Part shown: piece after piece, positions 3,523 through 21,965 of the stretch | Numbering within the stretch: position 1 is the stretch's first letter | Layout: each line of letters starts with the position of its first letter | IMG/VR virus record: IMGVR_UViG_3300048919_000061 | Span: 1 to 21,965 of that record | DNA from: a virus | Strand: one strand, 5' to 3' | DNA length: 21,965 bases | Position numbers and translations under genes: made by a program | The notes under the pieces: model-generated | Databases searched by the model: none | The model's input: only the letters and a program-made list of their open reading frames with translations | Told to the model about the DNA's origin: nothing

Positions 3523-3963
3523 ATGACTCAAAGTTACGTTGGCACAAAGCTGGTCAAGGGCCAGCCCATGAATCGCCTGGACTACAACCTGTACCGTGGC
3601 TGGGTTCTGCCCGAGGATGAGAACGGCGCCGATGCCGGTTATCTGGTCGAGTACCTGGATGGCGGCAAGCCCAACCACAGCGCGCACGCAGGTTACATCA
3701 GCTGGTCACCAGCCGAGCAGTTCCAGAACGCCAACGTCGCGTTGGGCGAAATTGATCACTTGGCTCCGCACCAGCAGCGCGTCGTCGCCGAGCTTGAGCA
3801 GTTAGCCGACCGTGTGACCAAGTTGGAATCGTTCCTCGCCACGCCGTTCTACGCCAGCCTGGACGAGGACGAGCGCACGCTGCTGAAGATGCAGGCCGAC
3901 GCCATGGTGCTGTACATGGGCATCCTCAACACCCGCGCCAACAAGTTCGGGGGTGGCAAATGA
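3523..3963 (+). CDS. Two-part phage protein: YISWSP module plus helical hairpin
   Basis: A 146-residue protein preceded by a good AGAGG site. Residues 1-75 form a small domain with GTKLVKGQPM, YRGWVLPEDENG, GYLVEYLDGGKPNH and HAGYISWSP, a pattern I associate with small phage proteins that occur beside or joined to DUF2829 domains. Residues 80-143 start APHQQRVVAELEQL and look like a helical hairpin ending in YMGILNTRANKF, a pattern I also know as a stand-alone small phage protein. This looks like two common phage modules in one chain. Its stop overlaps the ATG of the Tad2-like gene by four bases, so the two are probably translated together. Function is unknown; a role linked to anti-defence is inferred from the neighbour only. 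Confidence 0.75.
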   Translation: MTQSYVGTKLVKGQPMNRLDYNLYRGWVLPEDENGADAGYLVEYLDGGKPNHSAHAGYISWSPAEQFQNANVALGEIDHLAPHQQRVVAELEQLADRVTKLESFLATPFYASLDEDERTLLKMQADAMVLYMGILNTRANKFGGGK

Positions 3964-4313
3964 GTAATCCAGCCACCGACAACCTGAACTTCTGCGACGC
4001 CCTGCGCGCGATCAAGGCCGGCAAGCGTGCCCAGCGTGCCGGCTGGAACGGCAAAGGCCTGTTCGCCTTCCTTCAGCCAGGCAGCGTCCACGGCCCTTAC
4101 CTTGGCCCCAAGTTTCAATTGGCCATGGAGTCGGCGCCCGATGAAGGCGAAACCATCGACGGCCTGAGCGTGAGCTTGTTCCATACCAACGCCGCCGAGC
4201 ACACCGCGATTCGTTACCCGCAGCTGTGCCTGTCCTTCCCGACGGGCACCTTTGGCGCGTGGGCACCGAGCCAGACCGACATGCTCGCCAGTGACTGGAA
4301 GATCGTCGAATGA
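3960..4313 (+). CDS. Tad2-like (DUF2829) protein, predicted Thoeris antagonist
   Basis: A 117-residue protein. The N-terminal FCDALRAIKAGKRAQRAGWNGKG (11-33, continuous) and the C-terminal WAPSQTDMLASDW (101-113) are the two hallmark blocks of DUF2829. Members studied as Tad2 bind and sequester the cyclic ADP-ribose-type signal made by Thoeris defence, so the effector is not activated. Here the two blocks are separated by about 65 residues, making the protein longer than the roughly 90-residue Tad2 examples I recall. It overlaps the preceding and following genes by four bases each, inside the packaging operon. Family assignment is strong; the activity of this member is inference, because DUF2829 is large and few members have been tested. 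Confidence 0.85.
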   Translation: MSNPATDNLNFCDALRAIKAGKRAQRAGWNGKGLFAFLQPGSVHGPYLGPKFQLAMESAPDEGETIDGLSVSLFHTNAAEHTAIRYPQLCLSFPTGTFGAWAPSQTDMLASDWKIVE

Positions 4314-8087: not shown

Positions 8088-8285
8088 ATGCTGCGATTAG
8101 ACCTCAAGCCCGGAGAGAGCGTGAAGATCGGCGAAGGCCCGAACGCCGTCGTCATCACCCTCGAAGACAAATCAGGCCGGAATGCGCGCGTCGCGTTTGA
8201 GGCTGATCGCAGCGTGAAGATTGCCCGCGTCAAAGAGGACAGCACCCCGGCGCAATTCCTGCGCCAGGGCTTGATGGCCAGCTAA
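8088..8285 (+). CDS. CsrA-like small RNA-binding protein
   Basis: A 65-residue protein aligning end to end with CsrA/RsmA. MLRLDLKPGESVKIGEG parallels the CsrA start MLILTRRVGETLMIGD, keeping the LxL pattern, GE at 9-10 and IG at 14-15. RVAFEADRSVKIARVKE parallels the last strands of CsrA, with R47 where CsrA has the RNA-contacting R44. CsrA R6 is replaced by L6 and R7 by K7, so binding strength or specificity may differ. CsrA dimers bind GGA motifs in mRNA leaders to block or stabilise translation. The gene follows the scaffold gene by four bases (GGAG at 8075-8078) and lies directly upstream of the capsid leader. The fold call is good; the target is inference. Confidence 0.7.
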   Translation: MLRLDLKPGESVKIGEGPNAVVITLEDKSGRNARVAFEADRSVKIARVKEDSTPAQFLRQGLMAS

Positions 8286-19261: not shown

Positions 19262-19690
19262 ATGCCACAGCTGACGTACGACGATCAACCCGAACTGCTG
19301 CGCTGGGCCGCTGAACGTATCGGCGTGCGCTGCTTTAAGCCGGACGCCAAGGCCTTCGGTGTGCTGCGTGGCGGCCAGTTGTGCGCAGTGGTGGTGTGGG
19401 ACACCTTTTCCGAGGTGGATTGCGCCCTGCACGTTGCCAGCTTGGGGGATGGTCACTGGCTCAGCCGACGTGTGCTGATTCAGGCCTTCGGTTATCCGTT
19501 CATTGACTTGAAGATGCGCCGCCTTACCGCGCTGATCCCGGCCAAGAACGCCAGCGCGATCCGCTTTAACGAACACCTGGGCTTCAAGCTCGAAGGCGTC
19601 TGCCCGGAAGCGATGCCAGACGATGACATTCAGATTCGCGGCATGCTCCGACGAGAGTGCCGTTTTATTCCCCCGGAGTATCGCCAATGA
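19262..19690 (+). CDS. GNAT-family N-acetyltransferase
   Basis: A 142-residue protein with the GNAT acetyl-CoA fold. Beta strands (AFGVLRGGQLCAVVVWDTFSEVDCALHVAS) lead to the motif A loop (LGDGHWLSRRVLIQAFGYPF, about 60-80). MRRLTALIPAKNASAIRFNEHLGFKLEG (about 88-115) is motif B with the usual NxxxxRxNEHLGF. The end IQIRGMLRRECRF is typical of GNAT enzymes encoded in phage tail regions. The substrate is unknown: host protein, a small molecule or a virion protein. The gap before it carries short repeats, so it may be controlled apart from its neighbours. Its ribosome site (CCGGA) is weak. It overlaps the next ATG. Confidence 0.85.
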   Translation: MPQLTYDDQPELLRWAAERIGVRCFKPDAKAFGVLRGGQLCAVVVWDTFSEVDCALHVASLGDGHWLSRRVLIQAFGYPFIDLKMRRLTALIPAKNASAIRFNEHLGFKLEGVCPEAMPDDDIQIRGMLRRECRFIPPEYRQ

Positions 19691-20625
19691 TGACGCGAGA
19701 TTTTTGGACCCCGGCCGCGCTGGAGCCGGGCAACCTGCACCAGCGGCCATCGAAATTGGATCGGCACTTGGCGGTGCTCGCGATTGGTCGCAGCGTGTGT
19801 TTTGGCAAAGGTGGCGGCGGTGGTTCTGACGCTGACCCGCAGGTCGGTGAGGCCGCGAAGATGCAGGCCAAGACCGGCGCCGACTGGCTGGACTTCTCGA
19901 AGACCGCCTACGCGGACAGCCAGGTTCGCCAAGCCGTAACGGACAACCTGAATAACGAGGTCACCAGCCAGCAACTGGCTGACATGCGTCAGGCTAGTAC
20001 GCGCAGTGATGACCAGTGGGACCGCTACAACACGCTGTTCAAGCCCATCGAAGACCGCATGGTGTCCGACGCCAACAGCTACGACACGCCGGAAGCGCAA
20101 GCGGCGGCTGCCGCGACGGCCAAAGCCGACGTCATGGCAAACGCCGGTCAGGTGCAGCAGCAGAACGCGCGGCAGATGGCGAGCATGGGCATTAGCCCTA
20201 CGAGCGGGCGCTTCGCCGGGGTGGATCGGGGTAATGACCTGTCGACAGCCTTAGCCGCAGCAGGCGCGCAGAACGGCGCGCGTGAGCAGGTGAAAGCCAC
20301 CGGCATGGCCCTGCGTGAAGGCGTGGCCAACTTCGGGCGGGGCAATACCGCGACCGCCGCGCAACAGGTCAGCCTGGGTACGCAGTCGGGTAACTCGGCC
20401 GTGAACAACTCGCTAGCGGCAGATGCCAGTTCGCGGGCTAACACCAACATCATGGCGCAAGGCTTTCAGGGGGCGCAGCAAGGCTATGGCGGCCAGGCTA
20501 GTACCTTGAGCAACCAACGGCAACAGAACATTGCTGTGCAAAGCGGAAACCAGCAAGCCGACTCGGCCAACAAAGCCGCTATTGGTGGCCTGGCGGCTGC
20601 CGGTATGATGGCCGTCGCATTCTAA
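19687..20625 (+). CDS. Internal virion / ejection-type protein
   Basis: A 312-residue protein. After a short N-terminal arm and a Gly run (GKGGGGGSD), it is a long Ala/Gln/Asn-rich helical protein: DPQVGEAAKMQAKTGADWLDF, YNTLFKPIEDRMVSDANSYDTPEAQAAAA, ARQMASMGISPTSGRFAG, NDLSTALAAAGAQNGAREQV and GFQGAQQGYGGQASTLSNQRQQ. The order matches a protein family common in podovirus-like prophages after tail genes, likely packaged in the particle and released with the DNA. The Ala/Gly-rich C-terminus (AAIGGLAAAGMMAVAF) is hydrophobic and could touch a membrane. ATG 19687 overlaps the previous stop and has GGAG 8 bases upstream. Confidence 0.75.
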   Translation: MMTRDFWTPAALEPGNLHQRPSKLDRHLAVLAIGRSVCFGKGGGGGSDADPQVGEAAKMQAKTGADWLDFSKTAYADSQVRQAVTDNLNNEVTSQQLADMRQASTRSDDQWDRYNTLFKPIEDRMVSDANSYDTPEAQAAAAATAKADVMANAGQVQQQNARQMASMGISPTSGRFAGVDRGNDLSTALAAAGAQNGAREQVKATGMALREGVANFGRGNTATAAQQVSLGTQSGNSAVNNSLAADASSRANTNIMAQGFQGAQQGYGGQASTLSNQRQQNIAVQSGNQQADSANKAAIGGLAAAGMMAVAF

Positions 20626-20642
20626 TCACTGAGGGTTTCCAC

Positions 20643-21965
20643 TTGATCGAGGCAATCAACCGCGCCACCGACTTATCCATGGCCCAAGGTGTGCGCGTGA
20701 TGCAGACCGCGTTTATTGGTGGCAGTCAGGCGGCGCACGTCATGTACTTGTTGAAGCTGATGGCGCCAGCCCATGGCGCGCACATCGTTGACGCCGGCTG
20801 TGGCATTGGCGAAGTGGCAAGGCTGATGGCCGACAAGCGCCCCGATCTGAGCTTTACCTTGGCCAACATCAGCCAGCATCAGCTGGATATGGCGCCGGTG
20901 GGTGATCAGTTCCACCAGCTGCTGGCCGACTTCACCAACAGCCAGCTGCCGGCCGGCTGCGCCGACGTGGTGATGTTCAACAGCGCGCTGTGTCAGATGC
21001 CGATCAACCAAGCCTTGAGCGAGGCCCGGCGCCTGCTCAAGCCCGGCGGCCAGCTGTTCATCTGTGACCTGGCGATTGCCGAGTACCGCGAACTGCCGGA
21101 GCTGTACGCGACGTTTATGCCGGCCGATGTGTGGGGCGAGGTGATTGAACGTCACGGCTTTGCGGCGACGCAAACGATTCTGACCCACGGCGACATGACG
21201 CACTTTGCCGGCGAGTTCGACGACTTCGAGCAGGCCTTGCCCGGCGCCATGGTCTACATCGCCCAATTCCGTAGCCAAACGCTGCATGAGCAGGTGGCGG
21301 CGACGCTCGACCGGCACCAACGCATTGCCTTTCAATTCAGCGGCGGCAAGGATTCATTGGCCGCGCTGTTTGTCCTCGAACGCTATTGGCCGCAGATGAC
21401 TGTGTACTGGACGAATACCGGCGACCCGGTGCCGGAAGTGCTGGCGGTGGTCGAGCGCGTGCGCGCCCTGGTGCCGAACTTTGTCGAGATTGCCGGCCGG
21501 GTGAACGAACAGATTGCCGCGCATGGCTTGCCGTCCGACCTATTACCCACTACCGCAACCGCTTTCGGTCGCGCAGCCTATGGCGGTGGCGTAGCCTTGC
21601 AGGACCGGTTCAACTGCTGCTACCACGCGCTGATGGCGCCGATGCACCAACGCATGTTGGACGACGGCATTACCTTAATCGTGCGCGGACAGAAGAGCGC
21701 CGACGCGATGAAGTCGCCGCTGCGTTCCGGCGCCATGGATGACGGCGTGGAGCTGCTGTTCCCCCTGGAACATTGGAGTGACACGCAGGTTTTTCAATAC
21801 CTCAAGGGTAGCGCCTTCGTTCCGGGCTACTACGAACACTTGGCCGCCTCGCCGGATTGCCTGACCTGCTCGGCCTACTGGTCAGAAGGTCGTGCCACCT
21901 GGCTGAAGCGCAAACACCCCGAGGCCTACCAGGTCTATCAGGGTAAGCTCGACGTGATCCGTGAG
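20643..21965 (+). CDS. SAM methyltransferase fused to a PAPS-reductase-type PP-loop domain (partial, runs off the window)
   Basis: At least 441 residues with no stop before the window end. Residues 1-215 are a class I SAM methyltransferase: VDAGCGIGEVARL (49-61, SAM loop), ADVVMFNSALCQM (107-119) and ARRLLKPGGQLFICDL (128-143). No NPPY/DPPY signature is present, so it is not a standard N-methylating DNA enzyme. Residues 225-441 are a PAPS-reductase/PP-loop ATPase-like domain: FQFSGGKDSLAALFVL (230-245), NCCYHALMAP (324-333), IVRGQKSADAMKSPL and DCLTC (405-409). The CC (325-326) plus CxxC (406-409) arrangement is that of 4Fe-4S APS reductases and resembles DndC-type proteins. I chose TTG 20643 because GAGGG (20631-20635) is 7 bases upstream; ATG 20679 is an alternative. 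The substrate is unknown. Confidence 0.8.
   Translation, partial: MIEAINRATDLSMAQGVRVMQTAFIGGSQAAHVMYLLKLMAPAHGAHIVDAGCGIGEVARLMADKRPDLSFTLANISQHQLDMAPVGDQFHQLLADFTNSQLPAGCADVVMFNSALCQMPINQALSEARRLLKPGGQLFICDLAIAEYRELPELYATFMPADVWGEVIERHGFAATQTILTHGDMTHFAGEFDDFEQALPGAMVYIAQFRSQTLHEQVAATLDRHQRIAFQFSGGKDSLAALFVLERYWPQMTVYWTNTGDPVPEVLAVVERVRALVPNFVEIAGRVNEQIAAHGLPSDLLPTTATAFGRAAYGGGVALQDRFNCCYHALMAPMHQRMLDDGITLIVRGQKSADAMKSPLRSGAMDDGVELLFPLEHWSDTQVFQYLKGSAFVPGYYEHLAASPDCLTCSAYWSEGRATWLKRKHPEAYQVYQGKLDVIRE

Follow-up and report, generated by a model that had tools for sequence, protein, structure and literature searches.

A phage gene that joins a methyltransferase to a PAPS-reductase-like PP-loop domain with a motif set distinct from that of sulfate reductases

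Among viruses, "cysH" is often reported as an auxiliary metabolic gene. The gene considered here lies at the end of a 21,965-base viral metagenome record (termed the window, i.e., the whole stretch of DNA which was analysed), and its product joins a SAM methyltransferase (MT) half to a PAPS-reductase-like PP-loop (PP) half. The question is which reaction such a protein could carry out. An earlier note, made from the sequence of the window alone, had placed the PP half near PAPS reductase and DndC and had suggested that a thiolated and methylated base, nucleotide or small molecule might be formed. The gene was completed, modelled and compared with its relatives; loci and contigs are cited by L numbers.

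The fused gene and its two domains

The reading frame (Table 1) is open from a TTG codon to the final base of the window, which ends inside the gene. The sequence was extended with a 59.7 kb contig (L006), which is identical where it overlaps the window and encodes the same 441 residues. In it, the stop codon lies 48 nt past the window end (15 extra codons and the stop), and the complete gene, L006:10001-11371, encodes 456 amino acids. The single continuous frame and all four motifs named in the earlier note (VDAGCGIG, SGGKDS, CC and CxxC) were found as it had placed them. The position of the TTG start is supported by an ATG at the aligned position in four homologues (L005, L009, L010, L011). 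Profile PHROG 424, which bears the label "phosphoadenosine phosphosulfate reductase", matched residues 10-436 (E 6.9e-34) and thus spans both halves.

Table 1. Features of the fused gene and of its upstream neighbours in the window (residue numbers refer to the complete fused protein)
Feature	Position in window	Strand	Basis or remark
MT-PP fused gene	20643..21965	+	441 of 456 codons inside window
GAGGG, probable ribosome binding site	20631..20635	+	7 nt before TTG start
Class I SAM methyltransferase domain, residues 1-213, predicted	20643..21281	+	Pfam and model, pLDDT 94
SAM-binding loop VDAGCGIG, residues 49-56	20787..20810	+	Motif conservation
S-x-x-Q, residues 77-80, probable SAM-ribose contact	20871..20882	+	Conservation in MT rows
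PP-loop ATP-pyrophosphatase domain (PAPS_reduct), residues 216-456, predicted	21288..21965	+	Pfam PF01507, fold; C-terminus beyond window
PP motif SGGKDS, residues 233-238	21339..21356	+	SGG[K/R]DS in 74/74 PP homologues
CC pair, residues 325-326, predicted [4Fe-4S] ligands	21615..21620	+	Kept in 74/74
RGQK, residues 348-351	21684..21695	+	Replaces CysH substrate-binding segment
CxxC, residues 406-409, predicted [4Fe-4S] ligands	21858..21869	+	Kept in 74/74
Virion structural (ejection-type) protein gene, directly upstream	19657..20625	+	PHROG 8003, E 9.5e-81
GNAT-fold protein gene	19262..19690	+	PHROG 4470, E 2e-45

The whole fusion is encoded by 12 close contigs with identities of 71-100%. 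Within the window's own phage group dN was about 0.06-0.17 versus a dS of 0.46-0.92 in both halves, which are both under purifying selection. A frameshift or assembly artefact was ruled out by these 12 contigs, by the synonymous-biased change and by the recurrence of the fusion in distant loci (see below); one locus, L108, resembles a frameshifted fusion. AlphaFold2 was supplied with an alignment of 81 rows, which consisted of fetched relatives only and had the complete L006 copy as row 1. The folds of both halves were predicted with high confidence (mean pLDDT 94.4 and pTM 0.91 for the whole protein).

MT half: Pfam Methyltransf_11 matched residues 49-140 (E 6e-13), and a Rossmann fold with the GxGxG motif I was present according to Pfam, alignment and model. 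Residues G52, C53, G54 and G56 were kept in all 20 aligned MT rows, while 18 of the rows keep S77 and 19 keep Q80; the S-x-x-Q motif would probably contact the SAM ribose, as in RebM/CmaA-type enzymes. The best fold matches were SpnF (Z 25.3), AtmM (25.0) and geranyl diphosphate methyltransferase (about 23), followed by RebM (22.2) and cyclopropane synthases (about 21.5). By its predicted fold, the MT half is a class I SAM methyltransferase of the small-molecule type. SpnF, AtmM, RebM, TleD and GPP C-methyltransferase, which share this fold (Z 21-25), are however natural-product enzymes, and in the libraries searched no small-molecule SAM methyltransferase fused to a PP-loop ATPase is known. 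A Comamonas phage-plasmid (L014/L016) carries the fusion with a degenerate MT half, in which the SAM loop is gone (VVLIGNAGPE); this half may thus be non-catalytic there.

A stand-alone MT homologue (L018:19926-20675) was seen in Roseomonas plasmid or phage-like DNA, near the gene for a terminase small subunit. A very similar copy (L019:4509-5300) is found in a record that goes under the name of a Bacillus safensis plasmid and is possibly mislabelled or contaminated.

PP half: Pfam PAPS_reduct (PF01507) matched residues 228-389 (E 2e-7). A first fold search was filled by matches to the MT half, and therefore the PP half was folded (pLDDT 96.7) and searched separately. PAPS/APS reductases, the ATP sulfurylase subunit CysD and FAD synthase came out tied, with Z values of 14.7-15.4 (2o8v 15.4, 1sur 15.3 and 7lhs 14.8, all of the PAPS_reduct fold; 1zun, CysD, 15.3; 8ron, FAD synthase, 15.2), while GMP synthase was lower (13.8). 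The best match in a library of viral structures covered the PP half only. According to the model, the PP half has the PP-loop ATPase fold of the PAPS-reductase/CysD/FAD-synthase group.

The ATP motif of the PP half is intact. In a profile alignment, the invariant CC pair fell on the CC of the APS reductase of Mycobacterium tuberculosis (7lhr) and the invariant CxxC on its GCAPC; the two pairs, about 80 residues apart, are in register with the ligands of that enzyme, where CC and CxxC hold a [4Fe-4S] cluster. From this alignment, an APS-reductase-type [4Fe-4S] cluster would very probably be held by C325, C326, C406 and C409, much as the earlier note had supposed. R348 and G349 of the RGQK segment were present in 74 of 75 rows.

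Comparison with sulfate reductases and other PP-loop enzymes

True enzymes of the CysH type have altered P-loops (SSSFGIQ in E. coli CysH, SSLGAED in the APS reductase of Hydrogenophaga), and both of these keep the catalytic ECGLH. The phage PP family is the opposite on both counts: the modified P-loop was not found, SGG[K/R]DS being present in all 74 homologues, and the catalytic cysteine of sulfonucleotide reductases (ECG[LI]H) was absent, no cysteine being conserved behind the CxxC among the 74. What is shared with assimilatory APS reductases (2goy, 7lhr, 7lhs) are the fold, with Z about 14.7, and the register of the cluster cysteines. Since the catalytic cysteine is missing and the ATP-binding motif is complete, the fused gene and its PP relatives are, to judge from their motifs, not sulfate-assimilation genes, and the plain assimilatory enzyme which the earlier note had listed as a refuting possibility can be set aside.

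Nevertheless, papers on Lessieviruses, public records and PHROGs annotate the PP relatives as sulfate assimilation. The "PAPS reductases" of the Lessieviruses (BcepIL02 gp67, JC1 gp65, and those of DC1, BcepMigl and CSP3) belong to the same PP family, with about 52% identity, and occupy the same slot, after the genes for a GNAT and a virion protein; they are 239-240 amino acids long, without an MT domain, and their role in sulfate reduction is an annotation only. This PP-loop family thus resembles PAPS reductases but has its own set of motifs; it has been joined to a methyltransferase repeatedly, and its label of sulfate assimilation is a wrong one. It forms a large branch (265 matches, confirmed by tblastn, in a single viral collection), whose members, lacking the catalytic cysteine and having a complete ATP motif, ought to be left out of counts of sulfur-assimilation genes.

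DndC of other Betaproteobacteria (L227, L228) has SGGKDS and CxxC in common with the phage PP family, but a single C at the CC site and an additional C..SCG pair before the CxxC, a pair that the phage family lacks. With these differences, and with PAPS/APS reductases, CysD and FAD synthase as best folds, DndC is not the closest match, contrary to the first impression. Weak profile matches were obtained to SspD (best E 1e-12, 8 members), BrxP and DndC. These three resemble the phage proteins in the PP motif, the Fe-S type cysteines and the PAPS_reduct family; the phage PP half differs by the lack of the C..SCG pair and by its fusion to a methyltransferase. A bacterial SspD locus (L207) was too divergent and was dropped as a yardstick for motifs.

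TtuA/NcsA, which are Fe-S tRNA thiolases, and the sulfur transferase LarE also combine PP-loop adenylation with thiolation, by means of a cluster or a cysteine, although their fold matches to the PP half were lower (Z 11-12); they form a separate PP-loop branch with three-cysteine clusters. By its set of features, the nearest described analogue is CasCysH of type IV-B CRISPR systems, which has the PAPS_reduct fold, an intact SGGxDS and no catalytic cysteine, and for which ATP alpha-hydrolase and AMPylation activities were proposed (PMC8175902). CasCysH is encoded with csf genes and no MT partner is reported, whereas the phage gene stands among genes for virion and ejection proteins.

Linkage of the two domains and genomic setting

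Scanning with the PP alignment yielded 265 viral-contig matches confirmed by tblastn, the best 80 of which were used, and 17 bacterial matches, nearly all titled Proteobacteria (one metagenome-assembled genome is titled Planctomycetaceae); with the MT alignment, 79 loci were obtained. Among 96 non-redundant PP loci, at least 18 had an MT-PP fusion and one (L145) the reversed PP-MT fusion; a separate MT gene was located just upstream in 14, just downstream in 8 and further upstream in 3, while 44 were without MT, 7 were undecided due to short flanks and one (L149) belonged to another family, proportions which overstate the share of MT, since they mix PP-anchored and MT-anchored scans. Starting from MT, 42 non-redundant loci had more than 3 kb of flank on each side; the PP family was present within about 6 kb in 34 of them, and was not nearby in 7 to 8. 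An initial count of 35 was corrected when the "PP" of L149 proved to be a different PAPS-reductase family (FCSEELK...GCMPC). Linkage at a spacing of 2-5 kb was seen in L160, L168, L181, L197 and L201.

Well-supported branches of the PP tree force at least 5 changes for the MT-PP fusion label, and 9 or more changes are needed for whether MT is present at all; MT was lost from some fusion clades (L110, L111, L113). Distances of MT and PP were correlated (Mantel r 0.68; none of 2000 permutations as high), as were those of PP and the neighbouring virion structural gene (r 0.79); an ordinary virion gene is therefore co-inherited with PP at least as strongly as MT is. The absence of MT from 44 of the 96 PP loci, its loss within clades and its degenerate state in L014/L016 indicate that methylation is not always needed.

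The suspicion that two normally separate genes had been merged by an error is not borne out: the fusion is real and recurrent, with the 12 close contigs, distant MT-PP cases and the reversed arrangement in L145, and fused and separate forms both occur in phages, in both orders. A search of the openly accessible literature yielded no description of an MT-PAPS-reductase fusion.

Upstream of the fusion are genes for terminase, portal, major head protein, tail fibres and an internal virion protein, then those for the GNAT-fold protein and a virion structural protein, the true start of which is probably inside its listed reading frame. Downstream, in L006, follow the genes for a virion protein and for a giant protein that combines transglycosylase, helicase and methyltransferase domains. 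The neighbours match PHROG virion profiles, which confirms the virion gene block of the earlier note; its view that this is an unusual place does not hold, as the slot between ejection-protein genes is a conserved one for the PP family. The gene order resembles that of T7 genes 12 to 16, with the GNAT at the position of gene 13 and the MT-PP gene inserted after the second and before the third gene for an internal protein. A profile comparison of the GNAT with T7 gp13 gave no significant match, so homology is not claimed. A three-enzyme pathway of GNAT, MT and PP was considered, because most PP genes have the GNAT upstream of them, and rejected, since the GNAT is widespread in podovirus records that gave no hit in the PP search, has no clear Q/RxxGxG acetyl-CoA loop in the alignment and occupies the T7 gene 13 position.

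In virions of phage JC1, gp64, gp67, gp68 and gp69 were found by mass spectrometry, gp64 being the homologue of the virion protein encoded directly upstream of the fusion, while gp63 (the GNAT) and gp65 (the unfused PP protein) were both unlisted (PMC9144972). By analogy, the fused enzyme would be made late and would probably not be a virion component, absence from the JC1 proteome being weak evidence for non-packaging.

Several other genes of this region may be mentioned. The giant virion protein (L006:12732-21323 and beyond) is DarB-like: an SLT transglycosylase domain lies at its N-terminus, and it also has a methyltransferase (MTS) domain and an SF2 helicase whose C-terminal domain is of the Strawberry-notch type. 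Between terminase and portal, the window encodes a Tad2-like protein (3960-4313, +; PF11195, E 3.9e-19; Thoeris anti-defence 2-like), directly preceded by a gene with a crAss001_48-related domain (3523-3963, +; PF21825, E 9.8e-18). A CsrA-like gene (8088-8285, +; E 3.4e-8) is located just before the gene for the major head protein, likewise in Lessieviruses; CsrA of JC1 (gp47) was found in virions (PMC9144972).

Proposed reaction and its alternatives

The several fused and paired arrangements in related phages point to a modification reaction shared by MT and PP. The reading which we tentatively favour is adenylation, probably with thiolation, coupled to methylation by one bifunctional, non-structural phage enzyme. 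The PP half would bind ATP at SGGKDS and, following general PP-loop chemistry, would activate an acceptor by transfer of AMP with release of pyrophosphate. As the likeliest next step, though with less weight than adenylation, sulfur would replace the adenylated oxygen. The MT half would then methylate the same substrate or the product, to give a methylated and probably sulfur-containing compound; the order of the steps is our suggestion. The sulfur would be supplied by a cysteine desulfurase of the host, since no such enzyme (PF00266) was found in 11 related viral records and several are present in the host Cupriavidus. In APS reductase, the four-cysteine cluster does not pass on sulfur itself, and sulfur transfer is thus a guess from related PP-loop enzymes. 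For the acceptor, the weak profile links to SspD and BrxP could be taken to lean towards a nucleic acid and the predicted MT fold towards a small molecule or nucleotide, but neither clue is conclusive. A self-protective or anti-host role, as suggested in the earlier note, is speculative.

A bolder version, which we regard as doubtful, is that the family installs a new sulfur-plus-methyl modification on a nucleic acid or nucleotide late in infection, using one polypeptide, for example a methylthio- or a methylated phosphorothioate-type group. If it exists, it would be an addition to the known modifications of phage DNA, RNA or protein and to the counter-defence repertoire. The repeated linkage with MT, in both orders of fusion and as a separate gene, makes the two-step scheme a concrete and testable hypothesis.

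Adenylation without sulfur, as proposed for CasCysH or as in FAD synthase, is possible but rather unlikely; the cluster would then be structural and MT would decorate the product. This is consistent with the identical feature set of CasCysH (intact PP motif, no catalytic cysteine; PMC8175902) and with the tie of CysD and FAD synthase with PAPS reductases in fold, but the four cluster-type cysteines are invariant and are needed by neither CysD nor FAD synthase, which suggests more than plain adenylyl transfer.

It is improbable that MT and PP are two unrelated accessory genes in an insertion hot spot, fused incidentally and without a joint reaction. MT is often absent, the 7 to 8 MT loci without the PP family nearby fit such an explanation, and a slot between virion genes is typical for accessory genes. 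It does not account well for fusion in both orders, for adjacency both upstream and downstream, or for linkage even where the genes are 2-5 kb apart.

DNA phosphorothioation by an equivalent of DndC or SspD, as a mark on the phage DNA, would agree with the profile matches to SspD, BrxP and DndC and with the PP motif and Fe-S-type cysteines seen in DndC. Its probability appears low, considering the missing C..SCG pair and the CC in place of one C; furthermore, no DndD/DndE or SspB/SspC is annotated in BcepIL02 positions 1-59172 (annotation only, one phage), and we know of no methyltransferase partner in Dnd systems.

Similarly little likelihood is given to a post-translational modification of the neighbouring ejection protein. 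Its model is Cap9, a QueC-family protein of type IV CBASS, which conjugates a nucleobase to protein; this deazaguanylation is a precedent (PMC11996544), Cap9 was among the weak PDB matches, and the phage gene nearly always adjoins a virion structural gene. However, the neighbouring virion protein shows no conservation at its N-terminus, so that modification there was rejected, and no further residue emerged as a candidate.

That the gene simply serves sulfate assimilation as an auxiliary metabolic gene (CysH), as suggested by the annotation of Lessieviruses and of PHROG 424 and by the fold match to PAPS/APS reductases, is very improbable, given the missing ECGLH cysteine, the complete ATP-type PP motif which true CysH does not have, the fusion or pairing with a methyltransferase, and a Hydrogenophaga genome whose prophage carries a PP copy and which encodes an APS reductase of its own on that contig.

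Apart from the PP family of the fused gene, a second and distinct PAPS-reductase-like family of phages and prophages was seen in L125 (Hydrogenophaga) and L149, with the motifs SGGKDS, FC[TS]xELK and GCMPC.
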